Shown one piece after another: positions 3,921 through 61,415 of a DNA stretch of 64,000 bases. The notes beneath the pieces are model-generated. The model was not told the origin of the DNA. It saw only the letters and a list, made by a program, of their open reading frames with translations, and searched no databases. Position 1 is the stretch's first letter. Every line of letters starts with the position of its first letter. The position numbers and the translations under genes are program-made. The stretch is from Deltaproteobacteria bacterium (lineage in GTDB: Bacteria > Acidobacteriota > Thermoanaerobaculia > Multivoradales > JAHZIX01), in assembly GCA_022601195.1 (NCBI GenBank), contig JAHZIX010000010.1:124001-188000 (forward strand). Direction: 5' to 3'.

Positions 3921-3972
3921 CGGACTCGTCAGAAGAGACAGCCCCCGCTCGAAGACGGGGGTCTCGCTTCGA

Positions 3973-21358: not shown

Positions 21359-21385
21359 GCTTCCCTCAACTTCATACTCTCGATC

Positions 21386-23050: not shown

Positions 23051-23058
23051 CGCTTCCT

Positions 23059-23128: not shown

Positions 23129-23166
23129 CGGGATGGCCCTTCACAGGCTTAGTCTGGTGGCGAAAT

Positions 23167-24000: not shown

Positions 24001-24007
24001 GATCTCT

Positions 24008-27852: not shown

Positions 27853-27919
27853 GGGTGTGGGCTCGACCTCGAAACAGGGAGGGAAGCACCTCCCGGGAGA
27901 ATCCAATGGGGTCGTGTCA

Positions 27920-29488: not shown

Positions 29489-29489
29489 C

Positions 29490-36119: not shown

Positions 36120-36126
36120 GGGCGGC

Positions 36127-44932: not shown

Positions 44933-45994
44933 CTAGCCCTTCCCCCGCCGCCACTCTTTCGGACCTTCCGAAATGCATTCGTTGCGCTCCAGAATGTCCA
45001 CGGAAGTGGCATCGACCTTGAGGTCGGCGACGCTCCAAAACGGACCCTGGCAAGTTTCGGGAACGTGATAAATCTTCTGTTTACAGCCCCGGGTGGTGAT
45101 CGCTACGGTCGCCTGAGAGGCACCGAGGGTGCCGGTACCGGCATAGCGGTTGACGAGGTAGCGATAGGTGCCGGAAACCCGATGGTAGAGAGTGACGGTT
45201 TCAAAGCCTTCAGAGCGGGTGTGATCGACATCCAGCCTCCCGTAGATCTCGCCGCTATTGGCCTTTCCCTCCTTCTTCCCGAAGTACACATGGCGCTTGT
45301 TGGTAGGCAGGCCGGGGTTTTCCAGCAGGACGTGGGCATCCAGGTCCCGGGGGTTCTCCGCCCAGTCCAGCACCAGGCGGGCTGCCTCCTCAACTTCGAG
45401 GACCGGCGACAGAGGAAGGGAAAACTCCACGTCGCTTCCTTCTTCTAGGGAGATCTCCCGGCTACCGGCGCAAAAGCCCGACGCTTCCGCCTGCAAGGAG
45501 TGTTTCCCCGCAGGCAAGATCAGGGTGAAGGGACCTCCAGTGAGAAACTCTTCGCCCTCCTGAGAGACGAGGCGCACCATAGAAATGGGTTTCTCGGTAC
45601 GCGCATTGACGACGGAAACGAGAACTCTCGACGACATCGAACGGAGGCCAACTTCGACTTGCCGACGCTCCAAGGGAAGCGCTTCGAAGGAGACCGGAGC
45701 AGGGCGAAAGCCCTCAGCCTGCACTTCCAGCTCCACCTGACCACTGGGTAGCCGGGGGAAGACCAGCCGGGCAAGGGAGCCTTCATCGACAGGGGTTCCA
45801 GAGATCACCCTACCGCTGCGCAGGTCGGTTACAGCAACGGAAACGCCCCCAAGGTTTTGGCCGAAAGAAACATCCTTGAGCAGCAGCTCGACCTGGGCCG
45901 GCTTGGGAAGGAAGAAAGGCACAGCTGCCCCAGCACCTGCCAATAGCAGCAAGAAGAAGAGAAGGGTCAGCATGGGCCAGCGACTTCGTTGCAT
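44933..45994 (-). CDS. Membrane-anchored protein with PEGA-like and YfaP/DUF2135-like domains
   Basis: 353 residues: a transmembrane anchor (about 8-30), then two carboxypeptidase-regulatory-like or PEGA-like beta-sandwiches (about 35-125 and 125-200, with LPSGQVELEVQAEGF and LPAGKHSLQAEASGF), and a C-terminal domain (about 205-345) starting RLVLDWAENPRDLDAHV, which resembles the YfaP/DUF2135 pattern of xxWxxxPxDLDxHV. The role is unknown; surface or periplasmic binding is likely. It follows the trypsin-like protease by 9 nt. A hairpin (44918-44935) covers its stop codon. Confidence 0.72.
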   Translation of the reverse strand: MQRSRWPMLTLLFFLLLLAGAGAAVPFFLPKPAQVELLLKDVSFGQNLGGVSVAVTDLRSGRVISGTPVDEGSLARLVFPRLPSGQVELEVQAEGFRPAPVSFEALPLERRQVEVGLRSMSSRVLVSVVNARTEKPISMVRLVSQEGEEFLTGGPFTLILPAGKHSLQAEASGFCAGSREISLEEGSDVEFSLPLSPVLEVEEAARLVLDWAENPRDLDAHVLLENPGLPTNKRHVYFGKKEGKANSGEIYGRLDVDHTRSEGFETVTLYHRVSGTYRYLVNRYAGTGTLGASQATVAITTRGCKQKIYHVPETCQGPFWSVADLKVDATSVDILERNECISEGPKEWRRGKG

Positions 45995-46003
45995 CGATGG
46001 CTC

Positions 46004-46768
46004 CTAAAGGGGTTGACCCACTCGGTCCTGGAAAAACCGACTGAGGGCTTCGCTGGGTACCACCACGCCGAGACCTTCGTGGCCTTGAGTGGCATCCCCC
46101 TTTTGGCTAGCCACCCCTAACACCGTCCAGTCCGAGGTCAGCAGGACGGGTCCACCACTGTTGCCGGGATTGAGATCCATGCCGGAAGTGAAGAAACGGT
46201 TATCTCGGAAGCTCGACAAACTGCCGATACCGGAGACCGCCGCTTCGTCGGAGGTGGATGCGGTTGGCGGGTAGCCGATGGTAATGACTTCCACCATGGC
46301 ACCTGCCCCCTCGAAGAGAGTTGAATCTGCCAACGGCAGCGGGATCAGCTCTAGGTCCGGGAACGACAGGATCGCGAGGTCTAGCTCCGTCTCATCGGAG
46401 TAGCCGGAAATCTGCGCTTGGTGCTTGCGGCCCCGGTAGTCCACCAAGGTGATGGGGCTGCTGCAGGCCTGATGGTCCTTGACCACGTGAGCCGCCGTGG
46501 CGACGAAGCCGGCCTTGATGACAAAAGAGGTGCCGGACCGTCCTCCCTCCCCATCGCAACTCAGTACCTGCACATTGAGAATGCTCTGTTTGAGCTCTTC
46601 CAGATTGGCGTCGGAGAGCTCTGGGGCCACATCAGAAGGACCTTCCCGGATCAGCACATAGTGCCACCGGGTGGCATCCAGCCAGGCGAGGACGGTGGCG
46701 ACCACAGGCAGCAGAAAGAGGAGAACGAGAATCGTCACCATGGTCGCGCGAGATTTTCCTTGACTCAT
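46004..46768 (-). CDS. Membrane-anchored trypsin-like (S1C-type) serine protease
   Basis: 254 residues with an N-terminal signal anchor (about 10-29) and an S1 protease domain with a complete triad: His94 in ATAAHVV, Asp130 in LDLAIL and Ser204 in NPGNSGGP. There is no PDZ domain, unlike DegP/HtrA. GGAGG lies 6 nt upstream of the ATG. It follows the tubulin-like gene after 39 nt. In this cluster it could process the exported vWA, SUMF1 or GrpE-like proteins. Confidence 0.9.
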   Translation of the reverse strand: MSQGKSRATMVTILVLLFLLPVVATVLAWLDATRWHYVLIREGPSDVAPELSDANLEELKQSILNVQVLSCDGEGGRSGTSFVIKAGFVATAAHVVKDHQACSSPITLVDYRGRKHQAQISGYSDETELDLAILSFPDLELIPLPLADSTLFEGAGAMVEVITIGYPPTASTSDEAAVSGIGSLSSFRDNRFFTSGMDLNPGNSGGPVLLTSDWTVLGVASQKGDATQGHEGLGVVVPSEALSRFFQDRVGQPL

Positions 46769-46807
46769 GACAGCCTCCAGGGCAATAGGTTGAAAAGCAT
46801 GGGACCT

Positions 46808-49800
46808 CTAGAGCAGGCCATCGCAAACCGGACATTTGGGACCGGCATCCACCATGGAATAGCAGGTCGGGCACTCCACCTGGGCCGGAGCTTCCGGCTC
46901 CTTGGCAGGTTCCTCGGAGGGTTTCTCGGGTGGCTCAGGGGAGGAACTGATGGGAGGCTCGTCAGAGGAAGATGTTGACGAAGCCTCGTCCCCGGCTCGG
47001 GAGCCGGACGGCGGTGGGCTGGGAGGCGCTATCGGCTCCGCCAACTCCCAGGACGAACCGCACTCCGGACAGGGAAACTGGTCCTGGTAGCCAGACCAGG
47101 AGTGGCATTGAGGGCAGTCCAGCTTCGGTTCCGACCGCATCTGGTTGCCGCAGCTCCAGCATTCGTCGAGATCGTCGGGGACCCGCGAGCCACAGATCGA
47201 GCAGGAGAGGCCCTGCGCCACGTGCTGGTTACAGTGCAGGCAGTAGGTGGCCCGAATATCGATCTCCTTGCTGCAGTTGGGGCAGGGGCGCGAGCGGCCC
47301 TGGACCGGTGGCTCAGGAGACGGAGCCGGCGCTTCCGACCAATCCTTGCTGGGGCCTCGCAGGCGCTCCGGGTCGAGAGCCAGAGCATCCAGGTAGGCCC
47401 GTTTCTGGACCACCAGGCTTTGACTCTGCACCTCGAACTTGCCAGCGGCAACCACGTGACCTGCCAAGGCCGTTTGATAGTCCTCGTAGGTCAGCTCCTC
47501 CCCTTGCTTGCCACGGCGCCGGGCGTTCAGGGCGTTTTCCAGCTTGGTCGTTTCCTCCTTGGTGGGAAGCATGGTGCGCACTTGGTCCCGCGCGGTCGCC
47601 AACACGGCATGCTCCGGGGAATAACGCACCACCGTCATGTTGGAGACCCATTTGTCGTCCCGCATGGGCGGGTATACCAGGTGCAGGTAGAAGTCCAGTA
47701 GCAACCAATAGGCCCACAGCAAGCCCGCCGAGCGCAGTAGTTGGATGGACTCCTCTACCGCTTCCAACAGCTGGCGGCGGTCGGTGCGATGCTCTTCCCG
47801 GCCATCCCGGTAAAGAGCATCGATGGCCTGAGCCTCGGTACCCAATTGAATGTCCTCGGCGTCTAGCATGCCCCCACGGACATAGCTGTAGTAGGAAACC
47901 ACTTGCTCTGAGTCTTCTTCCTCGAGGTTTTTCACCTTGAACAAGCCGAGCACTCTGGCGAGGACGAAAGCTCGAATGGAATCCGCCAGCTTGCGAGCTT
48001 CTTCATCGGTCTTGGGCACCAGATCGCCGAACTGGAAGCGATTCTTGTCGAAGTGGAGCTCGTCCTTCTCCTTGTGGTCCGCATAGGCACTGCGCAAACC
48101 ACCAGGGCGAGTGATGGCTTCGGAGTAGAAAGCGGCGACTCCGGCCAGCTCGTTGTAGAACAGGATCGTGCCGCGATTCCCCTTGCCGAGGTTCTGAAAA
48201 CTAGGTGGTGAGTCCGCTGGTGAGCGGACCTCCGAGATCTGGCGTTGGAAATCGGCGAAACGAAGCTCGTTGTCCTTGTCCACTCCAATCAGACAGGGTC
48301 GCTGATCGGCGACCACCGGTCGGGTATCGATGTGGCTCAGACCTGTCTTGGCCGGCGATAGCCACACCTTGGCTAGGTCATAGGCCCGCTTGATCATGCG
48401 CTCCCGCTCGCCATCCCACCGCTTGTCTTGGAGCAGCTCCAGGGCTTCCGGCTGCTTCTCCTGGGTGGCAAAGACCTCCTTGCAGCGCGCCAGGATTCGA
48501 CCTTCCAGTTGGTCCGTGGGGGTCTTCGAGATCTGCGCCATGGCAGCGGTCACGGAGTCGACCTTGAACACCTCTTGGAGCAGCTGATTTCCTACCTGCT
48601 CCAGGGTTCTCCGATGGCGTTCCCCCTCGCCGCACCAACGGCGGTACCAGGTGTCGCAATCGCTCTCCTGGTACAGACTCACGACCAAAGCCGAGGGTTG
48701 CAGCTGAGCGAAATACTCCTGCTTGTCCCGCAGCAGGTGCTGCAACTTGGCGAAGCCGGATAGAAGCTTCCAATAGCGTGCCAGCAGGCCTTCTCCGGTG
48801 GCGTCATCCTTGCCGAGAAATCGGTCGATCTCTTCGCAGATGGCCTTGCCTCGCTTGGCCACCTGCTTTTTGACTCGCGAAAAGTAGTATTGGTAGAGGG
48901 CTCCGGGAGGAGCTCCCTTCCCCGTACCTACCAAAAGCTCGAAGTCCCATTTCAGGTGATGCCCGCGGAACAGCCACTCGCTCTCATGGCGGGCAATGTC
49001 TAACTTCAACTGATCCAGGTCATAGCCATAGGCCTGGGTTTCGTCTCGCCAGACCTCGATCTGGCTGTCGAAATGGCCTTGATAGAGAAAATTCTCGCTG
49101 CGCAGCAACGATTTGAGCTCCCGGAGCAACGACAAGGTGTAGGCCACCCCGTGCTTCGAGTCGTTGGCCGTCTTCTCTGCCTGCTTTTCGATACCCGCCG
49201 TGAGCCGCTCCATGTAGTTCCGCTTGTTGGACTCGATCTGGCGCACTCCCATACCCCACTCGTCCGGATCATCACTATCTTCGTGGGCGAACAGACGGTC
49301 CAGTTCTCCTAGTTCCCGCTCCAGGACGGTGGCTCGCTGGGAGTTCGGCGTGGCTTCCAGTAAATGGCGGATCTTCTGGGCCTTTTCCCACAGGAAACTG
49401 GGAAAGGTCCGCCCTCCCCCTTCTTCGTAGACTTCCAGGGCGTCTTCCACATCGACCCGGTCGATGACACCGCCCCCATCTCGACGCTCATAGCGACCCT
49501 GAACGAAGCGCACGTCTTCCTGGTTGAGAAACCGAGTGAGAAGCCGCTCCAGCGGATCATCCAACAGCGTCTTTTGCCAGAAATCGAGGATCTCCGTCGC
49601 CAAGCGAGCGCCACAGGCGGTGTGGACTCGGTCGGTGGGAAACTCGATGGCGGAATAACCAAAGGAGCCGAAGCGGGTGGGAAAGGTGTCGCCGATGACA
49701 TGCCGCTCCCGGCTCTGTCCGCGGCTACTCAAAGTGCGGTTGAGGTAGTTGTGGGAGTAGACGTCCAAGGCGAAATTGACCAGGTTGACGCGCGTCGCCC

Positions 49801-50767
49801 GCTTCTTGCCGGCGAAGCTACCCTGGGCGTAGTCCTGGAATAGGACTTCGGCGATCATCCGATAGGCGTTCATCTCGCCGCCACCGGAGGGAATGCTCAA
49901 CCCCGCTTCGTTGGCGCCGTCCACCAGGTAGGTGACATCGAAAGGGGGAGGGGCAACGATTTCGCTTCGATTGCCGTCCCAGTTGGCTTCGAAGCCATTG
50001 CCGAAGGAGTGATGGTTGAGCTCCATCAGGGCTGCGTAACCGTTGGCCTGTACCCGCTTGCCACCGGCGTAGCTGGTGAAGAAACTGGGCAAAAGCAGAA
50101 TGCCGACAGTGGAAGCGTTGGCGAAGTACTGCTTGAGCAGAAATCCCATATCCAGAAAGGTGCCACCCCCGGTACCTCCCGCCAAGGAGCAGATGATGAA
50201 GATGTCGACGTTCCCGGGTTCGAAATCGAAACCCAGCTCCGCCGACTGACCGAGGATCCTCGGGTCACTCAGGCTGTTGCGGGCATGTTCCAGGGTTGAG
50301 GTGACTTTCTGAAAATTAGGAGCGTGGTAGAGGCCCAGCCGGCTGGCCAGGCGGATCTGGCCCGCACCGTCCCCCAAATCCCCTAAGTTGGCGATCTTGC
50401 CCGTGTGGGGAAACCACCGCTTGATATGGGGATAGGTACTCAGATGGTTGACGTACTTCCCCGTCCCCCCTTCGATGGTCAGGTCGATGCGTTCCGAAGG
50501 CCGAAAACGTACCGCTTCGAAGAGGGGGTCCGCGGAGGCTGGTAAGTCATATTGCTCTCGGGCGTTGGTAGTGGTGTCCGTGTCCACGTGGACATATCGC
50601 AGGAAGGGAAGGGCGGAGAGAGAGCCGTAGCGCTCTACCACCAGACGCCGCAAGCGAAGCAGTACTTCTTTGCCGGTGCCGCCGAGGCCGATCATCAGAG
50701 TCGGACTGACGGGCTTGTTGTCGTTCTTCTTGGTCGGCGCAGTCTGTAGGAGTTGTTCCAAGCTCAT
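46808..50767 (-). CDS. Large tubulin/FtsZ-superfamily GTPase with C-terminal zinc ribbons
   Basis: A 1319-residue predicted GTPase of the Tubulin_2 type. Motifs: first nucleotide loop MIGLGGTGKEVL (25-36), VHVDTDTTTN (59-68, matching the FtsZ NTD loop), and the tubulin signature CSLAGGTGGGTFLD (193-206). The region to about 550 covers the GTPase fold. About 600 residues of mainly helical sequence follow. The C-terminus has four zinc ribbons (eight CxxC knuckles) from about 1148, with a Pro/Ser/Glu-rich stretch before the last. GAGGAAAC precedes the ATG. It lies between a small membrane protein and a protease in a co-oriented series. A filament-forming, envelope-linked role is inferred from family. 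Confidence 0.88.
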   Translation of the reverse strand: MSLEQLLQTAPTKKNDNKPVSPTLMIGLGGTGKEVLLRLRRLVVERYGSLSALPFLRYVHVDTDTTTNAREQYDLPASADPLFEAVRFRPSERIDLTIEGGTGKYVNHLSTYPHIKRWFPHTGKIANLGDLGDGAGQIRLASRLGLYHAPNFQKVTSTLEHARNSLSDPRILGQSAELGFDFEPGNVDIFIICSLAGGTGGGTFLDMGFLLKQYFANASTVGILLLPSFFTSYAGGKRVQANGYAALMELNHHSFGNGFEANWDGNRSEIVAPPPFDVTYLVDGANEAGLSIPSGGGEMNAYRMIAEVLFQDYAQGSFAGKKRATRVNLVNFALDVYSHNYLNRTLSSRGQSRERHVIGDTFPTRFGSFGYSAIEFPTDRVHTACGARLATEILDFWQKTLLDDPLERLLTRFLNQEDVRFVQGRYERRDGGGVIDRVDVEDALEVYEEGGGRTFPSFLWEKAQKIRHLLEATPNSQRATVLERELGELDRLFAHEDSDDPDEWGMGVRQIESNKRNYMERLTAGIEKQAEKTANDSKHGVAYTLSLLRELKSLLRSENFLYQGHFDSQIEVWRDETQAYGYDLDQLKLDIARHESEWLFRGHHLKWDFELLVGTGKGAPPGALYQYYFSRVKKQVAKRGKAICEEIDRFLGKDDATGEGLLARYWKLLSGFAKLQHLLRDKQEYFAQLQPSALVVSLYQESDCDTWYRRWCGEGERHRRTLEQVGNQLLQEVFKVDSVTAAMAQISKTPTDQLEGRILARCKEVFATQEKQPEALELLQDKRWDGERERMIKRAYDLAKVWLSPAKTGLSHIDTRPVVADQRPCLIGVDKDNELRFADFQRQISEVRSPADSPPSFQNLGKGNRGTILFYNELAGVAAFYSEAITRPGGLRSAYADHKEKDELHFDKNRFQFGDLVPKTDEEARKLADSIRAFVLARVLGLFKVKNLEEEDSEQVVSYYSYVRGGMLDAEDIQLGTEAQAIDALYRDGREEHRTDRRQLLEAVEESIQLLRSAGLLWAYWLLLDFYLHLVYPPMRDDKWVSNMTVVRYSPEHAVLATARDQVRTMLPTKEETTKLENALNARRRGKQGEELTYEDYQTALAGHVVAAGKFEVQSQSLVVQKRAYLDALALDPERLRGPSKDWSEAPAPSPEPPVQGRSRPCPNCSKEIDIRATYCLHCNQHVAQGLSCSICGSRVPDDLDECWSCGNQMRSEPKLDCPQCHSWSGYQDQFPCPECGSSWELAEPIAPPSPPPSGSRAGDEASSTSSSDEPPISSSPEPPEKPSEEPAKEPEAPAQVECPTCYSMVDAGPKCPVCDGLL

Positions 50768-50793
50768 TTCGTTTCCTCAGATATTGGGTGGCT

Positions 50794-51213
50794 TCAGCTA
50801 CGAACGAAACTGATCAGAAACCAGAAGGCAAGCAGGCCCACCAGGGCCAAGGAGGTCCATTGAAACCAAAGCAGGTAGAAGCCGAAGGTGTAAATCGTGT
50901 AGGAGCTGAGGTGAAACCAAGTGCACAGATAGAGCAGCACCCCAGGCCAAAAGATCGCCCGGGCTCCCACCTCCCCGAAATGACGCAGCAGGCTCGGGTA
51001 GAGGCCCCAATAGAAAAAACACCAAACGACCACGCTTCCCAGAATCACCCATAGGGCGCTTAGAAAGGGATTGGCGGTGGTGACCAGGGTGCCTCCGGTG
51101 GCCCCCGCATGGGGAGCCAAAACCGCCAGAAGAAGGGCCAAGCCCGAGAGCTTGGCGGCGAAGCCCCAAGGGATGCTGCCCTCGAGGTCACTGGGTAGCG
51201 AAGTTCTAGTCAT
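50794..51213 (-). CDS. Small integral membrane protein
   Basis: 139 residues, not recognised. A signal-like hydrophobic stretch (about 17-38) is followed by two or three transmembrane helices (about 48-68, 82-104 and 112-136). The ATG at 51213 has GAGGAG 9 nt upstream; longer readings would run antisense-like through the Gly/Arg/Pro-rich tail of the vWA gene. It lies 13 nt from the vWA gene and 26 nt from the tubulin-like gene, so it may anchor the GTPase at the membrane. Confidence 0.75.
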   Translation of the reverse strand: MTRTSLPSDLEGSIPWGFAAKLSGLALLLAVLAPHAGATGGTLVTTANPFLSALWVILGSVVVWCFFYWGLYPSLLRHFGEVGARAIFWPGVLLYLCTWFHLSSYTIYTFGFYLLWFQWTSLALVGLLAFWFLISFVRS

Positions 51214-51226
51214 GATGCATCTCTCC

Positions 51227-53140
51227 TCAAGAGCCAGGTCGGTTGATGGTCGGTCGACCGGAAGAGCGAGGGGACGAGGGACCTGCCCCGCCCCGCGGCG
51301 ACGATGATGTGGAAGTTGGTCGAGAACCTCGGGGGGCACCAGGGCTTGCCGAGCTCGGTCTCCCTCCGGGACGGCCACTGCCGGGGCGACCGGCGGTAGG
51401 GCGTCCCCCTCCAGGCCGACCTGGCCGGCCCCGAGAGGCACGAGATTCTTGTCCCTCGGCCACGGGGTCTCCGCCCACCTCCTGAATTTCCAAGGAGGTC
51501 GAAACTCCGTCCCGCACAGTGACGTTAAATCGCCCGGCGGTACTGGCCGCCTCCACGCGAACCGCCGCCGAAGCGCGGTTGGGAAGAAAGGTGGCAGCCC
51601 CCAGGAGAGGCCGGCCCAGCGTCCCTAGGCGCTGCCCTTGGTAATCGCAGTAGCGGGATTGAAGCCGCCTCAAGTCGACGAAGTTCTCCTCTCCCGCCAG
51701 ACGGATCTGGTAACGAGCGCGTTTGCCGAAGACAAAGACCAGAAGCCCCAGAAGACTCAGAAGGCCGAGCATCAGCAGCACGAAGAGCAGTTGCCGCCCG
51801 TAGCCGGAGGTCAGCTGAAAGGAGACGGCAACCGGATTCGAAGGAGCCGCTGGGATGTTCAAATGCTCTTCGATCTGAAAAATTTCCGGGGCCGCCTCCG
51901 CACCGAAGATCCCCGCCATCTGGCTGCGGTCGAATTCCGCCTTTAGACCCGTGCCTTCGGCTCGGACCCTCCCGGAGTAGGTGACGGTCAAACCCTTGGA
52001 GGCAGAGGCAAACCAAGCGCCCAGACCTTCGGTCTCCAAGGGAATGGGCTTCTTGGATCGGAGTTGGGCCTTCAGCCCCGTACTTTGCCGGGGGGAAATG
52101 GCAGACAGAGCCTTCGAGGTTCCCTCAAACTCTTCGCTTGGAATGGACTTGAGCCCATAGTCCTTCCCCGACTTTCCAGTGGGACGGAAAGGACTCACGG
52201 GAACGATGCGAATGGAACCGCTGACGATGCGGTGCTGGGTCAAGAGGTTCGTGACCCTCCCGTCCAGGTTCAGTTCCACCCGCTGGCGGTGCCGAAAGAG
52301 AGATTGTTGCCGTTGGGAGATCTGCACCGACAGGGTTTGTACATCCAGGCGCAGAATGTCGTTCTCAAGATTTTTGAGTTTCCAATGAACCGGTTCCTGA
52401 AAAAGGGGGCCACCCATCCCCTGTCGGCGAGCGAGAAGAAAATCCTGTCGAAACTTGGTATCGAAGAAGGTCTCAGACACTCCCTCTACGGCATTTGGAG
52501 AGACCAGGATGCCGTAGACCGCCAGGGTCCCGGAACTACCGCTCACCAGGGAAGCGAAGGGCAACTTGTAGAGGTGAACAGCCCGGTAACGGTCCTCCCC
52601 GTGAACCTCTTCGAAGAAGCGCCGGACCCCTTGGTCGGGTTCCCCCTGGCGGTCCTCGACGATGTTGTCGGTAATCAGCCAGATCAGTCCCTCGAAACGG
52701 CGAGTGGCTGCTCGCAAGCCTTCGGCAAGGAAAGTGTGCCGCCCCGAATGGGGAATGCGGCTGCTCACTCGCTCGAAATCGAACTCTCCAAGAGGGCTCG
52801 GAGGGTGGATGCGCCCAACGTCGGCAAAGCGGAAGGATTCCGAAGAAGTGAGGACCGACATACTGACCTGGTCACCGCCGAAGACGCTCTGCGCAGCGAC
52901 GAAGTCGTCGAGCCAACTGGCCAAAGCAGGGTATTGAAAAAAGTAACGTCCTCCCGCTTCCGCCAAGGTAGGGCCATCGGCACCGGGTGGCTGATACCCC
53001 GGGTACATGCTGCCGGAGTTATCCAGAAGAATCTTGACCTCCAGGCTCTCGCCGGAGCGCAGCTCCGCCGTCAAAGGAAAAGCCATCATCAAAGCGAAGA
53101 CGATGCCAAGGGCGAAGACCGAGAGGGTTCGGGTGTTCAT
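51227..53140 (-). CDS. Membrane vWA protein with intact MIDAS and GRP-rich tail
   Basis: 637 residues. Signal peptide (about 6-25), then a vWA domain (about 32-225) with DNSGSM at 40-45 and ITDN near 155, a beta-rich region (about 250-430), a transmembrane helix (about 442-465), a beta-rich cytoplasmic domain (about 470-550), and a low-complexity tail of Gly/Arg/Pro/Ser (about 565-637). The vWA thus faces the periplasm. It overlaps the zinc-ribbon propeller gene by ATGA. vWA partners are known from predicted tubulin-like membrane-remodelling systems. Confidence 0.85.
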   Translation of the reverse strand: MNTRTLSVFALGIVFALMMAFPLTAELRSGESLEVKILLDNSGSMYPGYQPPGADGPTLAEAGGRYFFQYPALASWLDDFVAAQSVFGGDQVSMSVLTSSESFRFADVGRIHPPSPLGEFDFERVSSRIPHSGRHTFLAEGLRAATRRFEGLIWLITDNIVEDRQGEPDQGVRRFFEEVHGEDRYRAVHLYKLPFASLVSGSSGTLAVYGILVSPNAVEGVSETFFDTKFRQDFLLARRQGMGGPLFQEPVHWKLKNLENDILRLDVQTLSVQISQRQQSLFRHRQRVELNLDGRVTNLLTQHRIVSGSIRIVPVSPFRPTGKSGKDYGLKSIPSEEFEGTSKALSAISPRQSTGLKAQLRSKKPIPLETEGLGAWFASASKGLTVTYSGRVRAEGTGLKAEFDRSQMAGIFGAEAAPEIFQIEEHLNIPAAPSNPVAVSFQLTSGYGRQLLFVLLMLGLLSLLGLLVFVFGKRARYQIRLAGEENFVDLRRLQSRYCDYQGQRLGTLGRPLLGAATFLPNRASAAVRVEAASTAGRFNVTVRDGVSTSLEIQEVGGDPVAEGQESRASRGRPGRPGGGRPTAGRPGSGRPGGRPSSASPGAPRGSRPTSTSSSPRGGAGPSSPRSSGRPTINRPGS

Positions 53141-54411
53141 TTCGCTACCACCTCGTAGAGGGCCACCTTGCCGCGGGCGCTACCGGTAGCCAAATAGGGT
53201 CCAAAGGAGGCAAGGGCAGTGATGCCGTTCTCCTGAGAGTCGACACGGATTTCTCGTTGCTGGTGAGGGCCGTGCCAGTCGTACAACAGCACCCGGCCAT
53301 CCTGGAGACCGACTGCGAAGGCGAATCCTCGGATGATCAAAGGCTGGCCGATCACCCGGTCCATGTGGCCCAACTTCTCCCGCCGGTGCAGGTAGGGGAA
53401 GCGAATCCCATTGGTCTCCACTTGCCCCCATTGGTCGACGCTCCCCAAGGCAAATTTCTTGACGTCGCTATCCAGCCGGATGGCTCCCTTGCCCCATTCC
53501 AGGCGGCACAACTGGTCTTCCTCACCGACCACCGTAAAGAGCTTGTTGCCCATGGCTGCCACCACGGTGTTCTGCATGGGGCCCACCGGCAGATCGTGAA
53601 ACGGAACCGAGCTCACTCGCAGAGGAACGACTCCCGCCTTTAGACAGTGCAGCTGGAGACGGCCCTTGGCCTCGGAGAGAAGATGCACCGTTTGGCTCAG
53701 AAAATCTCCCGCCAGAGCACTGAGTTTGGGCTCGGTGAGCAAGACCCGCGGCGCGGCGGGCCGCGAGCCGGAAACGCCATCGACCACGATCAGGCTCATG
53801 CGACCATCCCGGCGCTTGACCGTCGCGAATAGCCGGTCCCCTAGGGCCAGCAGGGCTTCCGCCGGACGCCCCTCGACCTCTAACTGCCAACGGGGCTCCG
53901 TCTTGGGATCCGGGAGCGTCAATGCGCCTAAGGAAAAGGCCGTCAGCCGCCCTTCTTGCCCAAGAAAGAGGGTGCTCCGGGAAATACAGGGATGGCAGCT
54001 CATGACCGAACCCTGCAAGTTCAGTCGGCGGTGAAAGGCGGTCGTCGGTTCGACGATCTCCACCTGGCCGGCATGTGAAATGGCGATGAGATGGGAATCC
54101 CAAGACAACAAGGAGAAGCAGCCGTCGGCCAAGCTCAGGTCGCCATTGGGCACCGGCAGGAGCCGAGATTCGGGAAGGCGAATCTCGGGCTTTGCGGCGT
54201 TGAGGCCGAGGCGCTTGGGGCCCCCTCGATAGCCGGACCAATGGTCGTCCTCGCCGGGAAAAGGCTGTCCGCAACGCTGGCAAAAATTAGCGAAGGCCCG
54301 CCCCGGGGCGCGGCAAGAGCCGCAACTCTTGACGAAGCGCCGGCACGTGGAACAGGCGGCAATCTCTTTGGCGAGATCCTTGGCCGAGCAATCCGGGTAA
54401 GGACAATCCAT
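53137..54411 (-). CDS. Zinc-ribbon protein with beta-propeller-like domain
   Basis: 424 residues. The N-terminal 50 residues hold four Cys pairs (C3/C8, C20/C23, C30/C33, C44/C47) forming two zinc ribbons. The rest is a WD40/PQQ-like propeller (for example DGRVLLYDWHG, ATGSARGKVALYEV at the end). No signal peptide, so it is cytoplasmic. The ATG overlaps nothing upstream but its stop overlaps the vWA start (ATGA). A truncated copy of its first ~25 codons is found at 56437-56598. Adaptor role inferred from the architecture. Confidence 0.8.
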   Translation of the reverse strand: MDCPYPDCSAKDLAKEIAACSTCRRFVKSCGSCRAPGRAFANFCQRCGQPFPGEDDHWSGYRGGPKRLGLNAAKPEIRLPESRLLPVPNGDLSLADGCFSLLSWDSHLIAISHAGQVEIVEPTTAFHRRLNLQGSVMSCHPCISRSTLFLGQEGRLTAFSLGALTLPDPKTEPRWQLEVEGRPAEALLALGDRLFATVKRRDGRMSLIVVDGVSGSRPAAPRVLLTEPKLSALAGDFLSQTVHLLSEAKGRLQLHCLKAGVVPLRVSSVPFHDLPVGPMQNTVVAAMGNKLFTVVGEEDQLCRLEWGKGAIRLDSDVKKFALGSVDQWGQVETNGIRFPYLHRREKLGHMDRVIGQPLIIRGFAFAVGLQDGRVLLYDWHGPHQQREIRVDSQENGITALASFGPYLATGSARGKVALYEVVAK

Positions 54412-54424
54412 AACAGCTCCGGTC

Positions 54425-56440
54425 CTAATGGCGGTTGACGATCACTTCCGGATGCTGCAGCACCCGGTCCGAGGTGAGGTCCAGGAAGCCCACCCCCACC
54501 ACCCCGAGGATCGTTCCCTCGGGATAGGTTGGGTTCACTGCCGTGGAGCGGCCGATGTGAAGGCTGCTTTCAAAGTTGGATTTCCCGGGGACGATCTCGA
54601 TCACCTGAAGCTGGCCCCAGAGGAGAATCTCCACCACGAGCCCTTTGGCTTCCTCGAGATCCTCGTGACGCCCCTCCAGCTCCAGCTGCCAGTAGTGGCG
54701 GAAGAATTGGTCGGCGAAATCCTGGAAGTCCTCCCGCACCCAATCCTCTAAGCGAAATTCCAGCCGGCGACGGCCTTCGTCAGTGTTGACGAGGCTCAAC
54801 AGGTGATAGGAGAAGTCCCGCAGCTGAAAGAGCTTTCGGCTGGCGGTGTCGGCATCTAGAGGAGCCTCATCCTCCCCCGTCGCCCCGAGAATCTTCTTGA
54901 TCACGGTCAGCTTTGAAAGCAGAGTGCTCGCTTCGAGCACCGGCTGAGCGGCGGCGAGAGCAGCGCTCGAAAGGTCGACAGAACTCGAGAGGCTAGCCGG
55001 CAGAGTGCTCCGGATCTCGTCCACTTTGAGCCGTAGGTCCAGATCGACCCCTTCGAAGCTCTCCTCAAAGATCGTCCCTTGGAGCGAGCCCTGAACCTTG
55101 ACCCACAGCTCTCCCAAGGCCTGCCGCTCGAGCTCTAAAGTGGCAGCGAAAGGACGCGCCTCCAGGTGATCCGGCAGGGAACTGAAATGCTGAAGCTTCT
55201 CGACTCGAGCTGCTAAAACTGCCTGTGACTTCTTCAGTTCGGCGGCGACTAGGCGAAGCTCCCCTTCGATCCTCTGCACCGCTGCCTCCGGAGCCGAACT
55301 GGGAGTCAGGTTCTCTAGCTCGCTGAGACGGTGGCTGAAGTGCTGAAGCGCTTGCTTCCAGGAGCTTTCGGTCTCGCTGGCTCGCCCTTCCAGCATTTCT
55401 CGGAGGGTGGTCAACTCTTCGAGGGCTACCTTTCCGCTAGATAGACCCCTAAGCTGGTGGGCGAGATCTTCAACCCGATGCTGAAGCTTCGAGACTTCGG
55501 CGGACTCATCCTTCGGGGCTGGAAATACATTTCTTTCGGGACTGGAGCTGGCAGACCTTCTCTTTCTCCAACTGACGGCGAAGTGCAAAAACCAAAGGAG
55601 AAGGCTGAGGGCGCCGGCTAGGGCTCCTGCGAGCCTGCCAAAAGTAACTCCTGGGCTGTTGAAACCTGGGCTGGCAACACCTGGGCTGAACTCCTCCCGC
55701 AACTTCTCGGTTTTCATGTCGAGCCGAGCTTCAAGATTTCTATCGACAGAAATGTCTTCTGGCCTTGAGGAATCCTCACCTGGCCCTGGTGATGGTTCGG
55801 GAGGTTTACCCCCTGATCGGCTCCCTCCTACCCCCAACTCATCAGCAGTTTGCGTAGCGATTGCTGCCCTCTCCTGAAGAGTCACTATCAAGGCATCTAG
55901 AGAAGCAAATCTTTCTTCGTTGTTCCGCGGTCTCGGCTGCACGCTGGAGAGGGAGGAAGTGAAGGGAGAAGCTCCTCCACTGGCGTTCTCTCTCTCCAGA
56001 TCCAGACGAGCCTGGTGTGCCAGAGAATGGAACTGGCCAGGTTTCCAGTCGTCCTGGTAGACCTTCTTGAGCTGACCGAGCATCGCCGCGGCCTCACTCA
56101 GTCTGCCTCCCAACTCGGGGCAATTCCTGGCGTCCCGACATGGATCGGCCGAGTTGAGGGCCAGAAAGGTTGCCAGGGAAGAACCCAGTTCCTTAGATGG
56201 CTGATTGAGGGAAGACCATGAAAGTCTCGACAGACAACCTTTTAGATAGATCAGCTGTGCCTGGTTCGGAACCTCACCATTCTCCAGAGTGTTTCTGAAA
56301 GTCTCGATACCGCTACACACCTCTTGGCCCAGGGCCGGAGCCGAGCAAACCACCCCAATGATCAACAAGCTCATGAGAGCCACCACAGAAAAGCGGCGGT
56401 TGGCAGAAGCCAAGGGCATCTCCGGAGAAAGAAAGATCAT
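54425..56440 (-). CDS. Membrane-anchored GrpE-like protein, copy 1
   Basis: 671 residues. Signal or anchor (about 17-38), a periplasmic region with conserved Cys (about 40-265), a transmembrane helix (267-290), a cytoplasmic coiled coil (about 310-425), a helical region, and a C-terminal segment (about 595-671) that follows the GrpE beta-domain pattern: LQVIEIVPG...FESSLHIG, then EGTILGVVGVGF and DRVLQHPEVIVNR, compared with GrpE I-x-P-G-x-x-F-D-P-x-x-H and G-[KR]-x-[IL]-R-x-A-x-V-x-V. It may be a nucleotide-exchange factor for the Hsp70 encoded nearby. ATG at 56440 overlaps the remnant ORF stop (ATGA); a TTG at 56413 or ATG at 56419 are alternatives. Paralogue of the next gene. Confidence 0.75.
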   Translation of the reverse strand: MIFLSPEMPLASANRRFSVVALMSLLIIGVVCSAPALGQEVCSGIETFRNTLENGEVPNQAQLIYLKGCLSRLSWSSLNQPSKELGSSLATFLALNSADPCRDARNCPELGGRLSEAAAMLGQLKKVYQDDWKPGQFHSLAHQARLDLERENASGGASPFTSSLSSVQPRPRNNEERFASLDALIVTLQERAAIATQTADELGVGGSRSGGKPPEPSPGPGEDSSRPEDISVDRNLEARLDMKTEKLREEFSPGVASPGFNSPGVTFGRLAGALAGALSLLLWFLHFAVSWRKRRSASSSPERNVFPAPKDESAEVSKLQHRVEDLAHQLRGLSSGKVALEELTTLREMLEGRASETESSWKQALQHFSHRLSELENLTPSSAPEAAVQRIEGELRLVAAELKKSQAVLAARVEKLQHFSSLPDHLEARPFAATLELERQALGELWVKVQGSLQGTIFEESFEGVDLDLRLKVDEIRSTLPASLSSSVDLSSAALAAAQPVLEASTLLSKLTVIKKILGATGEDEAPLDADTASRKLFQLRDFSYHLLSLVNTDEGRRRLEFRLEDWVREDFQDFADQFFRHYWQLELEGRHEDLEEAKGLVVEILLWGQLQVIEIVPGKSNFESSLHIGRSTAVNPTYPEGTILGVVGVGFLDLTSDRVLQHPEVIVNRH

Positions 56441-56598
56441 CTTCCGACCCCGTCCGATGCACTGCTTCCCCTGCGCGCAAGGGCTTGATGATCCATGGAT
56501 CGCCCACCATGGCTCCTGCCGAAACGCCAGCAAGTAGCGCATCCAGCCATCTCTTCAGCGAGATTCTTGGCCGAGCCATCCGGGTAAGGGCAATCCAT
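56437..56598 (-). pseudogene. Truncated duplicate of the zinc-ribbon propeller gene
   Basis: A 53-codon ORF whose first 26 residues match the start of the zinc-ribbon gene (MDCPYPDGSAKNLAEEMAGC against MDCPYPDCSAKDLAKEIAAC), after which homology stops. Cys8 is changed to Gly. It sits 13 nt after the stop of GrpE-like copy 2, the same spacing as the intact gene after copy 1. Its TGA overlaps the ATG of copy 1. It is a scar of tandem duplication of a (GrpE-like + zinc-ribbon 5' end) unit. Confidence 0.82.
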
Positions 56599-56611
56599 AG
56601 CGACTCCGGCC

Positions 56612-58558
56612 CTAGCGGCGGTTGACGATCACTTCTGGGCGCTGGAGCACCCGATCGGTGGTGAGGTCCCGGAAACCCACCCGCACCACCCCCAAGATCG
56701 CTCCCTCGGGATAGCTTGAGTTGGTTGCCGTGGAACGGCCCATATGAAGACTGCTGTCGAACCTGGTCTTCCCGGGGATGATCTCGATCACCTGAAGTTG
56801 GCCCCAGAGGAGAATTTCCGCCACGAGATCCTTGGCTGCTTCGAGGTTCCCTTGGCGACCTTCCAGTTCCAGTTGCCAGTACTGCCGAAAGAACTGGTCG
56901 GCGAAACCCCGGAAGTCCTCCCGCACCCAATCCGCCAAGCGGAATTGCAACCGGCGGCGGCCCTCGTCCGTGTTGAGCAGGCTCAGCAAGTGAAAGGAGA
57001 AATCGCGCATCTGAAAGAGCTTGCGGCTAGCGGCGGCGCCGTCCACAGGAGTAACCTCTCCCCTTGTCTCTCCAAGAATCTTTTTGATCACCGTAAACTT
57101 CGAGAGCAGAGTGCTCGCTTCCGCCACCGGCTGCGCCGCGACGAGAGCGGCCCTGGAAAGATCTTCAGAACTCTGGAGGCGCTCCGGCAAGAGGCTTCGG
57201 ATCTGGTCCACCTTGGGCCTCCAATCCGAATCGCTCCCTTCCAGGCTCTCCTGAAAGGTCGTCCCCTGGAGCGAACCCTGAACCTTCTCCCACAGCTCTC
57301 TCAAGGCCTGGCGCTCTAGCTCCAAAGTGCCAGCGAGGCGGCGTGCCTCCAGTTGATCTGGCAGGGAACTGAGCTGCTGAAGCTTCTCGACTTGCCCCAG
57401 CAAAGCTGTCTGAGCAGTCTTTTGTTGCGCTGTTGCTAGGCGAAGCTCCTCTTCGACCCTCTGCACCGCTGCCACCGGAGCTGAGCTAGGAGTCTGGTTT
57501 TCGAACTCGTGGAGACGAAGGCTAAGGCTCTGTAGCGCTTGCTGCCAGGAGCTTTCGGCCTCGCTGACCTGTCCTTCCAGCACCTCGCGGAGGGTAGTCA
57601 ACTCTCCTCGGGCTGCCTTCCCGCCTTCTAGATCCCGCTGCTGCTGGGCGAGATCTTCAAGCCTTTTTTTGAGCCCCGAGACCTCGGTGGAGTCATGCCT
57701 GGTTGGCGGAAATTTCGTTTCTCTGGAGGTAGATGGGACCAACCTCTTCTTCTTCTGGATGGCGAATAGAAGGGTCCACAATAGAAGACTGAGAGCTCCG
57801 GCGAGGGCACCGAAGTAGGCTGGAAAGCTGCTACCAGGAACAACCTTTTGGTAAGAATCTCCACCCTCCTCAGAGACAGAGAACTTCTCTTCGAGCTTGG
57901 TGAAACGGAGCTTTAGTTGATCCAGTTCCAATTCGACAGCTCGTTGGTGCGCTTTCCATGCGACCGCATCGAGTCCTCCAATCAACCCATCGAGAGAGAG
58001 GCTCCTGTCGTAGTTACTTAGCCTTCCATTGACAGTCTCACTTGTCGGGATGGTTGCCAGCGTTCCCTGGATGAACGACATCTCTTCAACCGATGTCTTG
58101 CCTGCTAATGCCGTTCGGGCATCAACCGCCACGTCATTGAATTCAGGCAGAGTTTGGTACTCCTCGCTGAGATCTCGAAGCCGCGCCAAAACCCAAGAGA
58201 TTCTTTGAAGACTTTTGCTCTGACCAACGAGCTTCTCGGGATCCGCAATGCTGTCGACCGGTGTTTTGAGATTCCTCTTCAGAAAGTCTGCGATTGCGAC
58301 TCCTGGAGAATTGTTAGTCTCCTTCCATGAAGCCCAATTGCCCGATGGCTTTAGACAATCCACCAGCGCTTCAAGCTGCTGGTTGTTAGGAATCTCATTT
58401 CTCTCCAGAGTGTCCCTAAAACTCCTGATCCCGCTGCACACCTCCTCCCCCAGCGCCAGCGTTGGACAACCCAACGCGATGATCACCAGGCCCACGAGGC
58501 CCCAAGTTGGAAGACGATTGGTGGCGGTCATGGGAATCTCCGGAGAAAGGAACGTCAT
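56612..58558 (-). CDS. Membrane-anchored GrpE-like protein, copy 2
   Basis: 648 residues and the same architecture as copy 1: signal (about 18-37), periplasmic region (about 38-245), transmembrane helix (246-268), coiled coil (about 290-400), helical region and a C-terminal GrpE-like beta segment (about 572-648; VIEIIPGKTRFDSSLHMG and DRVLQRPEVIVNR). The C-terminal two-thirds are highly similar to copy 1; the periplasmic parts differ strongly and are less GC-rich. The ATG at 58558 lies 4 nt after the Hsp70 stop; an ATG at 58531 with GGAGA 5 nt upstream is an alternative. Confidence 0.76.
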   Translation of the reverse strand: MTFLSPEIPMTATNRLPTWGLVGLVIIALGCPTLALGEEVCSGIRSFRDTLERNEIPNNQQLEALVDCLKPSGNWASWKETNNSPGVAIADFLKRNLKTPVDSIADPEKLVGQSKSLQRISWVLARLRDLSEEYQTLPEFNDVAVDARTALAGKTSVEEMSFIQGTLATIPTSETVNGRLSNYDRSLSLDGLIGGLDAVAWKAHQRAVELELDQLKLRFTKLEEKFSVSEEGGDSYQKVVPGSSFPAYFGALAGALSLLLWTLLFAIQKKKRLVPSTSRETKFPPTRHDSTEVSGLKKRLEDLAQQQRDLEGGKAARGELTTLREVLEGQVSEAESSWQQALQSLSLRLHEFENQTPSSAPVAAVQRVEEELRLATAQQKTAQTALLGQVEKLQQLSSLPDQLEARRLAGTLELERQALRELWEKVQGSLQGTTFQESLEGSDSDWRPKVDQIRSLLPERLQSSEDLSRAALVAAQPVAEASTLLSKFTVIKKILGETRGEVTPVDGAAASRKLFQMRDFSFHLLSLLNTDEGRRRLQFRLADWVREDFRGFADQFFRQYWQLELEGRQGNLEAAKDLVAEILLWGQLQVIEIIPGKTRFDSSLHMGRSTATNSSYPEGAILGVVRVGFRDLTTDRVLQRPEVIVNRR

Positions 58559-58562
58559 CTAT

Positions 58563-61415
58563 CTATCCCATCCAATGCAGCTCTTCCGCCGGACGGAGGG
58601 GCTTGATGTCGATGGTTTGGTCGCCCACCATTACGGTGAGGCGGCGATTGGCGTCGAGGGTGAAAAGGACTCGAATCTCTTGGGTCTTGGCCAGGTCGAA
58701 GGAGTAGTCGAGATTGCCCACTTCGTGAATGTCCGGGTTGCCCTTGATGCGAATGGCGGTCCCGAGGTTCAGCAGCAGCTTGCGCTGCAGCCGACCGGAC
58801 AGGTCCAGCTCGCTGGCGGACAGGACACGCTCTCTCTCGAGGGGATAGATCTCGCCACTGGGGATGATCGTCTCGAATTCGGGAGTGCCCAGAGGGTCAA
58901 AGCGAACCCAGCCGTAGGCATGGGGGAGACGGTGCTCTTGTACCAACCGGATCGTGCCACCGGCCCGGTGGCGCAACTGGCCGAACTTCAAGGCGCCCTT
59001 GGCCACGCAGGTTTTGAGCAGATCTTCTTCCAGGAAGATACGCCCCGCCTCCAAAGCCTTTGGAAAGAGCTCTGCAACCTTGTCCTGAACCGCTCCCATG
59101 AGGCTCTGCCGGCCGCCATGGAGCACAAAATCGATATTGTCGGCTTTGATCTGAGCCAGGGAGAGGGCAGAGGTCACCAGGGAAAGAGCTTGATCGAGAG
59201 TCGGCCCCAACAACTCTTCGAGATTCTGGCGGCTGAGCTCCAGCCGAACGCTCTTACCGCCTCGCACATACCTACCCTTTTCCACGTGACCCAAAGCGGA
59301 CGCCGGGAGCTTTTCGGAGACAGGGTCTTCGCGGCTCAAGCGAATCTTCAGCTTCTCGACATACTCTTTCCAATCCCGACGAGCCCGGTAGACCTCTTGC
59401 CAGGTAGCACTGGGCCATTGCTCTGCCTTCCGTCGATCCACCACTTGGCGGTGCGGCAAGGACACCAAGGTGGTGTCGAAAAGAGGCTCTGCCGCCTGAG
59501 CGCTAGCCAAAAGATCAGCCATCAGAACGACGTCCAGGTGATCACCACCCAAAAGGTTGTTGCCCTTGGTAGCGAGGATCTTGAGACCGATGCTGGCATC
59601 TTCCAGGCGGGTAGCCTGAGCCACCGAAATATCCAAAGTGCCACCACCATGGTCGTAGACCAAGAGGTTGAGGCCCCGCTTGCGACCAATCATCCTCTGC
59701 AACTCCCCTTTCAGACTGCGTTGGTCCGAGAGGTAATGGAGAAAGTAGAAAGCGGCGGCTGAAGGTTCGTCGAGGATGATTCCGGCGTTGATCTCGGTGC
59801 CGATCAACTCCCGGAGCCGAGCGGTGACCGCCTCCACCTGATCCCTTTCCGTCGCGATGCCGGCCCGCTCACAGGCTTCTAGAATTCCTTGGATCTGCAA
59901 GTCGAAGAAATTGGCGGGCACCGAAATGATGGCTCGCTGGACGTCATAGTGCACCCTCCGGGTCTCTAGCAAACGCTGCTCAGCGAAAGCCACCAAGTGC
60001 CTCAGGATGTGGGCGGCGATCTCCTCCGGACGGTAGCTCTTGCCGAGGATCTCTAAGGCCTCGTCATATCCCATGAGGCGCTTGATGGAAGGCACCATTC
60101 TTTCCGGGAAGGTGCGGCTCGCCTCCAGGGCGTCGTGGCCGATGCGCGTGGTGCCGTCCGGATGAAAGTACAGCAGGCTGGGAATGAGTCCCGACGGACC
60201 CTCACCATTGGGACCCGGGACCTCGACGAGCTCCGGGCTCAGATCTGATCCCAACACGGAGACGACGGAGTTGGTGGTGCCGAAATCGATGCCGACGTAG
60301 TCCGGGTAGGGAGTCAGCTCGTGGAGCAGAAGCTCCACCGGTAGACGTACATTGTCGAGATCTTCTTGCGCGGTAACGATTTCCACGAAGCCCTGGTGAG
60401 TGCCAGGTTCCAAGCCCTGAGGCTCACAACCGAGGGTGAAGGAGAGCAGGCTTTTATCCGACACCTGAGTGCCCTCTATGGCCGAGAGAGTCCGAGGCAG
60501 GATGGGAGGGGAGAGCACCTTGAGCCACTTGGCGGGGGCTCTCACTGCCTTCACTTCGACGTCGATGGAGCCTCGGTTGCGGATCTCCACGGGAATCGCA
60601 TCCACTCGCTTGGCAGAGCCTTCGAATCGCACTTGGCGCGGCGCTGGCTCCAGGCGATAGCGATACAAATTCGCTTGGGCGGACACTTGGAAGATCTGCT
60701 TGTCAGCCAACTGAAGGAGAAAACCAGCATCAGTGCCGTCTTCCTCGGATTCGATGGAGGTGTCCCAAAAGACCGGAATCTCGACGCTCTGCCCGGACTC
60801 CACGGAGATGGGAAGCCCCACTTTTCCAACCCCCAGTTGGCGGGTCCCCTTGGTGTCGATCGCCGTAACCCGCAGGGCGAGCCCACCTTCGTTGGCCAGA
60901 TGAATCACCTGGTCGCCCCTTTTACCTTCGGAGAGCTCTCCGAAGCTCACTGCAGCGGCGACCGGTCGAGGGCCGGAACGCACCGTTACTTCGACGGTAC
61001 GGCGAAGATTCCCTTCCTGATTGAGAATCAGATGGTAGAGAGTATGCAGCTGCCGAAAATCTTTGGGCAACTTATCCGGGTCAAGGCGAAGGGGGACATT
61101 CGCTTTCTGGCCCCCTTTGATCACTAGAGAGCTCGATTTTCCGTGGCTGAGCCAGGCGCTCTCGGGGTCTTGGCGGATTTCGACATGGAGATCCTGGGGG
61201 TCCTGATTCCACAGCACCAAAGTCTGTTCCTGACGGGAAGGAAGGGAGGAAACCAGGATCACCGACTCCGGCTGAATGGCCAACTGCAAAGCCAGCCGAC
61301 CACAGCCGGCGCAGTAGTTGTCCCCGGCTGCCACTGGCCACTCTCCGCAGTGAGAGCAGAATTGCCTACGCTGCGGTGTCGTGCCAACGCTCTTTGGGGC
61401 TGCTCTTGTCGTCAT
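58563..61415 (-). CDS. Zinc ribbon - Ig-like - Hsp70 fusion protein
   Basis: A 950-residue cytoplasmic Hsp70-family ATPase. Residues 20-38 form a zinc ribbon (CSHCG...CAGCG); 45-365 are Ig-like beta-sandwiches (MSP/ASH-like, for example LVLWNQDPQDLHVEI and IPVEIRNRGSIDVEV). The actin-like ATPase starts at about 372: phosphate-1 GIDFGTTNS (375-383), ILDEPSAAA (547-555), phosphate-2 YDHGGGTLDIS (587-597), adenosine loop VLHGGRQS (764-771). The C-terminal part is short, with no normal DnaK lid or substrate domain. It heads the minus-strand series, followed within 4 nt by GrpE-like copy 2. The start ATG at 61415 has only a weak ribosome site. Confidence 0.9.
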   Translation of the reverse strand: MTTRAAPKSVGTTPQRRQFCSHCGEWPVAAGDNYCAGCGRLALQLAIQPESVILVSSLPSRQEQTLVLWNQDPQDLHVEIRQDPESAWLSHGKSSSLVIKGGQKANVPLRLDPDKLPKDFRQLHTLYHLILNQEGNLRRTVEVTVRSGPRPVAAAVSFGELSEGKRGDQVIHLANEGGLALRVTAIDTKGTRQLGVGKVGLPISVESGQSVEIPVFWDTSIESEEDGTDAGFLLQLADKQIFQVSAQANLYRYRLEPAPRQVRFEGSAKRVDAIPVEIRNRGSIDVEVKAVRAPAKWLKVLSPPILPRTLSAIEGTQVSDKSLLSFTLGCEPQGLEPGTHQGFVEIVTAQEDLDNVRLPVELLLHELTPYPDYVGIDFGTTNSVVSVLGSDLSPELVEVPGPNGEGPSGLIPSLLYFHPDGTTRIGHDALEASRTFPERMVPSIKRLMGYDEALEILGKSYRPEEIAAHILRHLVAFAEQRLLETRRVHYDVQRAIISVPANFFDLQIQGILEACERAGIATERDQVEAVTARLRELIGTEINAGIILDEPSAAAFYFLHYLSDQRSLKGELQRMIGRKRGLNLLVYDHGGGTLDISVAQATRLEDASIGLKILATKGNNLLGGDHLDVVLMADLLASAQAAEPLFDTTLVSLPHRQVVDRRKAEQWPSATWQEVYRARRDWKEYVEKLKIRLSREDPVSEKLPASALGHVEKGRYVRGGKSVRLELSRQNLEELLGPTLDQALSLVTSALSLAQIKADNIDFVLHGGRQSLMGAVQDKVAELFPKALEAGRIFLEEDLLKTCVAKGALKFGQLRHRAGGTIRLVQEHRLPHAYGWVRFDPLGTPEFETIIPSGEIYPLERERVLSASELDLSGRLQRKLLLNLGTAIRIKGNPDIHEVGNLDYSFDLAKTQEIRVLFTLDANRRLTVMVGDQTIDIKPLRPAEELHWMG

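Follow-up and report, generated by a model that had tools for sequence, protein, structure and literature searches.

What might a bacterial operon achieve by encoding an Hsp70, two GrpE-like proteins predicted to span the membrane and a large tubulin-like protein side by side? The question is raised by a 64,000-nucleotide stretch of contig JAHZIX010000010.1 from an acidobacteriotal genome (hereafter the window), where an initial annotation had proposed an undescribed Hsp70–GrpE–tubulin machine at the cell envelope. We know of no mechanism for prokaryotic Tubulin_2 proteins, the family to which the tubulin-like product is assigned. Three functional readings of the operon are considered here: an envelope-signal machine, a conflict system and a surface-assembly device. 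The first is the best, and we give it an even chance of being right: a rare, horizontally spread, membrane-spanning machine in which an envelope signal would pass through GrpE to a dedicated Hsp70 and on to a tubulin-like assembly.

Eight co-oriented minus-strand genes fill positions 46004–61415, and a ninth core gene lies just beyond them, at 44933–45994. The nine co-oriented core genes described initially thus exist, with eight of them, not nine, inside the former interval. The same-strand run extends past the core through two further genes, which encode a vWA-like protein and a protein with an FGE-sulfatase domain, and ends at 40695:

58563–61415, minus strand: Hsp70, with a zinc ribbon, Ig-like domains, a DnaK-type ATPase (residues ~373–812) and a short SBDbeta-like C-terminus, lid absent
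56612–58558, minus strand: transmembrane (TM) GrpE-like protein a, with a signal/TM segment at 16–34, TM 249–267, a coiled coil and a GrpE head
54425–56542, minus strand: TM GrpE-like protein b, a paralogue of a; likely true start 56440
53137–54411, minus strand: protein with zinc ribbons and a beta-propeller-like part (Pfam DZR 0.006, weak WD40 matches)
51227–53140, minus strand: vWA-type membrane protein with a DNSGSM motif and TM 452–470; overlaps the previous gene by 4 bp
50794–51213, minus strand: small protein with three hydrophobic segments (139 aa from the ATG at 51213)
46808–50767, minus strand: Tubulin_2/FtsZl1-type GTPase-fold protein (Pfam Tubulin_2 3e-63), with a helical middle and C-terminal zinc ribbons
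46004–46768, minus strand: membrane-anchored trypsin-like protease (Pfam Trypsin_2 6e-18), predicted extracytoplasmic
44933–45994, minus strand: membrane-anchored carboxypeptidase-regulatory/PEGA-like protein (CarboxypepD_reg 1e-7, PEGA 2e-5), the ninth core member
43149–44831, minus strand: lineage-specific vWA-like protein with three C-terminal hydrophobic segments (GC 0.476)
40695–43139, minus strand: TPR–TM–FGE-sulfatase (C-type-lectin-like) protein (Pfam FGE-sulfatase 2.8e-31)

All named genes are long open reading frames (ORFs), and Pfam supports the HSP70, Tubulin_2, Trypsin_2 and zinc-ribbon assignments, the zinc ribbons being found on the Hsp70 (P0001), the propeller protein (P0004) and the tubulin-like protein (P0007). 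From the Hsp70 gene to the end at 40695, the intergenic gaps measure 4, 69, 13, −4, 13, 26, 39, 9, 101 and 9 bp, so the short gaps or overlaps described initially are real (−4 to 101 bp). Promoter and terminator scans of the operon gave no signal above chance, and the locus matched no phage record. Pfam found no MoxR/AAA ATPase among the operon proteins, and a MoxR–vWA ternary system is ruled out by the absence of a MoxR AAA+ gene among them.

A gene-neighbourhood search, one of the checks suggested by the initial annotation, recovered the order Hsp70–GrpE–propeller–vWA–(3-TM)–tubulin-like–trypsin–(carboxypeptidase-regulatory) in five genomes besides the window: G002, SZUA-115 and a gp7 Acidobacteria metagenome-assembled genome (MAG), all Acidobacteriota, together with an Aminicenantes MAG and Desulfonema magnum. 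Among 59 relatives, full-length tubulin-like relatives were present in two other genomes (65% and 42% identity), and the Hsp70 and tubulin subfamilies co-occurred in exactly the same 3 genomes. Scanning the genome contigs with the tubulin-like protein as a single sequence gave no matches; a profile scan of named genomes with an alignment as query returned seven loci and added the gp7 MAG (48%), the Aminicenantes MAG (41%) and the complete D. magnum genome (46%). The Hsp70, GrpE, propeller, vWA, tubulin and trypsin genes stand in the same order in all of the added genomes. The Aminicenantes cluster is split over two contigs with fitting ends, and the D. magnum series is broken by a transposase-like ORF and a lytic transglycosylase gene. 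For the tubulin subfamily genes as a whole, Hsp70 and GrpE lie in the same cluster in 5 of 6 cases and on a second, fitting contig in the sixth. The Aminicenantes and D. magnum sequences pair in the protein tree (100/99), which points to a probable movement of the module between phyla. The cluster is also rare: it occurs in 1 of 149 genomes of the phylum and is absent from a genome of the same genus (G001).

Every family in the operon is common individually, and ordinary chaperone, protease and membrane genes might simply have come to lie beside a Tubulin_2 gene, as the uninformative promoter and terminator scans would allow. We regard such a chance neighbourhood as extremely improbable, and the gene order kept in six genomes from at least two phyla, at a tubulin-like identity of about 41–65%, rules it out. 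The conserved synteny, together with the predicted topology, instead backs the proposal of a dedicated Hsp70–GrpE–tubulin-like module at the envelope.

The Hsp70 is recognized by Pfam (HSP70, E = 2e-32), and in a profile search of the PDB it matches solved DnaK structures (E = 7e-41). Its catalytic ATPase residues Asp377, Thr380, Lys445, Glu550, Asp588 and Thr593 are invariant in 6 of 6 orthologues. The C-terminal 140 residues align with the SBDbeta of an Hsp70 (residues 393–490 of the latter; hhalign probability 77%, E = 2e-5), and the chain stops directly after this part in all six orthologues, so that the helical lid (SBDalpha) is absent. At the N-terminus, a zinc ribbon is followed by Ig-like repeats (weak choice_anch_D match). 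In one Blastocatellia locus, this zinc-ribbon–Ig part is encoded alone (144 residues), beside propeller, vWA, 4-TM and tubulin genes; given this separate protein, it looks like an adaptor module. In D. magnum and Aminicenantes, Ig-like repeats are also found on zinc-ribbon proteins encoded separately.

Other Hsp70-associated genes were observed in the related genomes. The gp7 MAG has a second Hsp70-family copy (L055 3419–7009, plus strand), for which the 20 kb read contained neither tubulin nor GrpE genes. A Blastocatellia Hsp70 (L056 7688–11575, minus strand) has an extra N-terminal region that appears J-like by eye and is followed by a 227-aa TM-GrpE. Between the Hsp70 and GrpE genes, 3 of the 6 operons carry a conserved protein of 520–545 aa (L054 12319–13890, plus strand; L050 14915–16549, minus strand; L031 near 3700–5116, plus strand), possibly a degenerate actin-fold protein. 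In D. magnum and Aminicenantes, where the gene follows the Hsp70 gene and its product measures 523–544 aa, it was considered as a degenerate second Hsp70, a view that profile comparison did not support.

The two GrpE-like proteins (P0002 and P0003) match Pfam GrpE at 2.7e-4 and 7e-3, both under the gathering score. This weak call is strengthened by structure prediction and by distant homologues. In the AF2 model, the C-terminal part (541–648) reaches a pLDDT of 71–91 and the remainder is poor; the eight top PDB matches in Foldseek are all GrpE (probability 0.93–1.0, E 0.004–0.12), the E-values being modest because most of the modelled chain is uncertain. A distant homologue, the Blastocatellia TM-GrpE, clears the Pfam GrpE cut-off at 31.6 bits. 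Searches of PDB sequences with the GrpE and tubulin alignments yielded coiled-coil or chance matches only.

Both window copies share one layout: an N-terminal hydrophobic segment, a region of ~200 residues, a second hydrophobic segment, basic residues, a coiled coil and the head. A predicted TM segment with a positive-inside flank precedes the head in eight GrpE proteins; in protein a, the flank following TM2 reads QKKKR. This charge distribution predicts that the outer helical domain is exported and that the head resides in the cytosol with the Hsp70. No publication on a membrane-anchored GrpE emerged from full-text literature searches. Copies a and b are 57% identical over their full length and 75% in the C-terminal part, which marks them, on sequence comparison, as a recent duplication. 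D. magnum independently carries two successive GrpE genes, the first of which (1194 aa, L050) has two heads in tandem; the independent multiplication of heads in both genomes suggests that the exchange factor is under selection.

The 8.0 Mb genome contains one copy of the tubulin-like gene. The AF2 model of residues 1–1150 (pLDDT 83.7, pTM 0.75) finds CetZ, tubulins and FtsZ as its best PDB matches in Foldseek (probability 1.00), and the nucleotide-loop glycines G29–G32 and G197–G202 (GGTG and GGTGxG) are invariant in 15 diverse relatives. Structure prediction thus supports the individual folds of the GrpE head and of the tubulin-like protein. The tail contains eight CxxC motifs, sufficient for several zinc ribbons.

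Among the remaining partners, the propeller gene has orthologues in 6 of 6 genomes. The vWA protein has no Pfam match, yet its DNSxSM motif (MIDAS-type DxSxS) is invariant in three orthologues; TM prediction and charge flanks suggest a signal peptide, an extracytoplasmic DNSGSM domain, TM 452–470 and a basic, Pro/Ser-rich cytosolic tail. Homologues of the small protein with three hydrophobic segments occupy the same position in G002, Aminicenantes and D. magnum. The protease residues His94, Asp130 and Ser204 are conserved in three orthologues, and the carboxypeptidase-regulatory gene adjoins the protease in G002, gp7, Aminicenantes and D. magnum. FGE proteins come after the core in Aminicenantes too. 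The vWA-like gene at 43149–44831 has a GC content of 0.476, versus 0.57–0.62 in the other operon genes, which suggests a later insertion.

The HtrA-like protease and the PEGA-type proteins, predicted to face outward, would also suit an envelope quality-control or surface-assembly device (secretion, pili or motility) with tubulin-like filaments and the chaperone as scaffold and motor. A parallel exists in Synechocystis, where the products of sll0445 (Tubulin_2), sll0446 (actin-fold ATPase) and sll0447 (coiled coil) are found in association with proteins of pilus assembly, and the mutants are impaired in phototaxis (PMC9880817); this is the sole experimental hint, and it comes from a distant Tubulin_2 protein. 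However, any kinship of Sll0446 and Sll0447 with the window Hsp70 and GrpE is hypothetical, and the window operon contains no pilin or secretion gene. We consider such a device unlikely.

For the envelope-signal machine, the predicted anatomy assigns the parts to two sides of the membrane. The zinc-ribbon Hsp70, the tubulin-like GTPase and the zinc-ribbon propeller are cytosolic by sequence and prediction; the vWA domain, the trypsin-like protease, the carboxypeptidase-regulatory protein and, in some lineages, an FGE/lectin-like domain are predicted to be extracytoplasmic; and the GrpE proteins are predicted to link the two sides. From this anatomy we infer that GrpE relays signals to a dedicated Hsp70, which in turn acts on the tubulin-like protein. 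An envelope event (a ligand, damage or cleavage by the trypsin-like protease) would rearrange the outer part of a GrpE dimer, whose cytosolic heads would then cause the dedicated Hsp70, which has no lid, to exchange ADP for ATP. The Hsp70 would cycle on a single dedicated client, for which the tubulin-like protein or the vWA protein's tail is the likeliest candidate, and this cycling would switch assembly or release of a tubulin-like scaffold beneath the membrane. The zinc ribbons on the Hsp70, the propeller and the tubulin tail probably hold the cytosolic parts together. The specific proposal that the transmembrane GrpE is a receptor, converting an extracytoplasmic event into exchange on the lidless Hsp70 and so switching a tubulin-like polymer at the inner membrane face, is more tentative, and we lean against it. 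A membrane-crossing GrpE would, if true, be a new route for signals into the cytoplasm, and the cluster may let outside events drive an internal cytoskeleton or a defence response. The operon connects one branch of Tubulin_2 with a particular chaperone cycle, whose exchange factor is predicted to span the membrane, and offers defined biochemical pairs for testing.

Several observations weigh against the envelope-signal machine. Conservation of the extracytoplasmic GrpE domain is low and its model is poor, no J-domain protein was recognized in the window operon, and the members of the subfamily are characterized by sequence and prediction alone. Filaments are uncertain because Makarova and Koonin (PMC2875224) were unable to find, in FtsZl1 proteins, the T6-H7 and C-terminal elements with a role in FtsZ filaments. 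Finally, 16 stretches around distant Tubulin_2 genes (from order relatives, Blastocatellia, a betaproteobacterium, Oscillospiraceae and plasmids), several of them short contigs, contain no full Hsp70 or GrpE. The tubulin-like protein therefore does not always need the chaperone: the coupling put forward initially holds for the subfamily genes found, all of which have Hsp70 and GrpE, and fails for distant Tubulin_2 genes, which regularly lack them. One distant Blastocatellia locus independently shows the series vWA–4TM–tubulin–Hsp70–TM-GrpE. Given these 16 stretches and this one locus, the gene contexts make Tubulin_2 plus vWA look like an older core, with the chaperone pair belonging to particular branches.

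The patchy distribution, with absence from G001 and presence in 1 of 149 phylum genomes, could also fit an anti-invader system of the type described by Kaur, Burroughs, Iyer and Aravind in 2020 (PMC7159879), in which sensing outside or inside the cell would trigger infection-containing Hsp70/tubulin assemblies with FGE or protease components as effectors or sensors. That paper defines GTPase-centric systems by DO-GTPases and GAP1, reports GAP1-N2 neighbourhoods with tubulin and vWA (52%) and with Hsp70 and GrpE (14%) as non-overlapping themes, lists trypsin and FGE components in systems from Planctomycetes, and mentions a class in which GTPases are joined by tubulin homologues and an Hsp70. 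The common parts list (tubulin with vWA, Hsp70 with GrpE, trypsin, FGE and zinc ribbons) speaks for this explanation, as do a STAND NTPase and a lipase-like gene below the operon and distant Tubulin_2–vWA pairs beside BrxL and DUF1156/Swt1-HEPN genes on Thermales plasmids. On the other side, PADLOC matched no core gene except through generic trypsin matches, the genome contains neither DO-GTPase2 nor GAP1-N2, and the core shows a constant set of genes, not a hypervariable one. We judge a conflict system to be rather unlikely.

The neighbourhoods concerned are as follows. About 3 kb past the operon, the minus strand at 31593–37584 encodes a NACHT-type STAND NTPase (1520 aa; PADLOC STAND_TPR 1e-42) and then an LCAT/PGAP1-like hydrolase, which looks like a conflict-type pair; a cluster of multihaem cytochromes, a cNMP-binding/Fe-S protein and an FHA-fused oxidoreductase occupies 17916–31469, also on the minus strand. 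On the Meiothermus and Thermus plasmids (L061 10330–18407 and L062 10473–18432), the Tubulin_2–vWA pair is followed by a hypothetical gene and brxL, and the Meiothermus pair also adjoins DUF1156 and Swt1-HEPN genes, which may link Tubulin_2 to defence.

The defining families of the DO-GTPase class were searched for directly. DO-GTPase2 (PF19993) has no match in the window's own genome, G002, G018, gp7, D. magnum or Blastocatellia, and only sub-threshold matches, on another contig, in Aminicenantes; Pfam scans of the window did not reveal the other DO-GTPase subtype, for which no genome-wide search was made. GAP1-N2 (PF20013) is absent from the own genome and was found only on Aminicenantes contig C416 (L046/G060). 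Besides GAP1-N2, that locus encodes a VWA-fused Hsp70, a second Hsp70 and two DO-GTPase2-like proteins with sub-threshold matches; it lies on another contig than the chaperone–tubulin operon, which indicates two separate systems in Aminicenantes. The class also has an FNIII-repeat component, to which the Ig-like repeats of the Hsp70 N-terminus and of the D. magnum and Aminicenantes zinc-ribbon proteins might correspond.

Compared with the DnaK–GrpE pair, the window proteins are alike in their ATPase catalytic residues and GrpE beta head, and probably in an SBDbeta-like C-terminus. Unlike DnaK, the window Hsp70 lacks a lid and begins with a zinc ribbon and Ig-like domains; its GrpE partner differs in its predicted passage through the membrane and its predicted exported domain, and no J-domain gene was recognized in the operon. 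In the Synechocystis locus, too, a Tubulin_2 gene is accompanied by genes for an actin-fold ATPase and a coiled-coil protein, but Sll0446 and Sll0447 are annotated as FtsA and DivIC, not as Hsp70 and GrpE. With the FtsZl1/Tubulin_2 (PF13809) vWA systems (PMC2875224), the operon shares a Tubulin_2 protein with a long helical C-terminus, an exported vWA protein and membrane-protein neighbours; unlike those systems, its tubulin-like tail has several zinc ribbons. The main text of that paper names vWA, kinase, GTPase and OmpA partners and neither Hsp70 nor GrpE, in agreement with the initial statement that a chaperone and exchange factors lie outside its description. Tubulin with vWA, Hsp70 with GrpE, zinc ribbons, trypsin, FGE and membrane association are common to the window and the Kaur systems, but the window has a predicted transmembrane GrpE and a fixed core with propeller, trypsin and carboxypeptidase-regulatory genes. 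Lacking DO-GTPase2 and GAP1-N2, it is not a member of the DO-GTPase class by defining features, although it shares that class's parts and perhaps its logic. Both sets, tubulin with vWA and Hsp70 with GrpE, appear in PMC7159879, which qualifies the initial description of the machine as undescribed; there they are called non-overlapping, whereas the window operon joins them, linking two gene themes previously published as separate.

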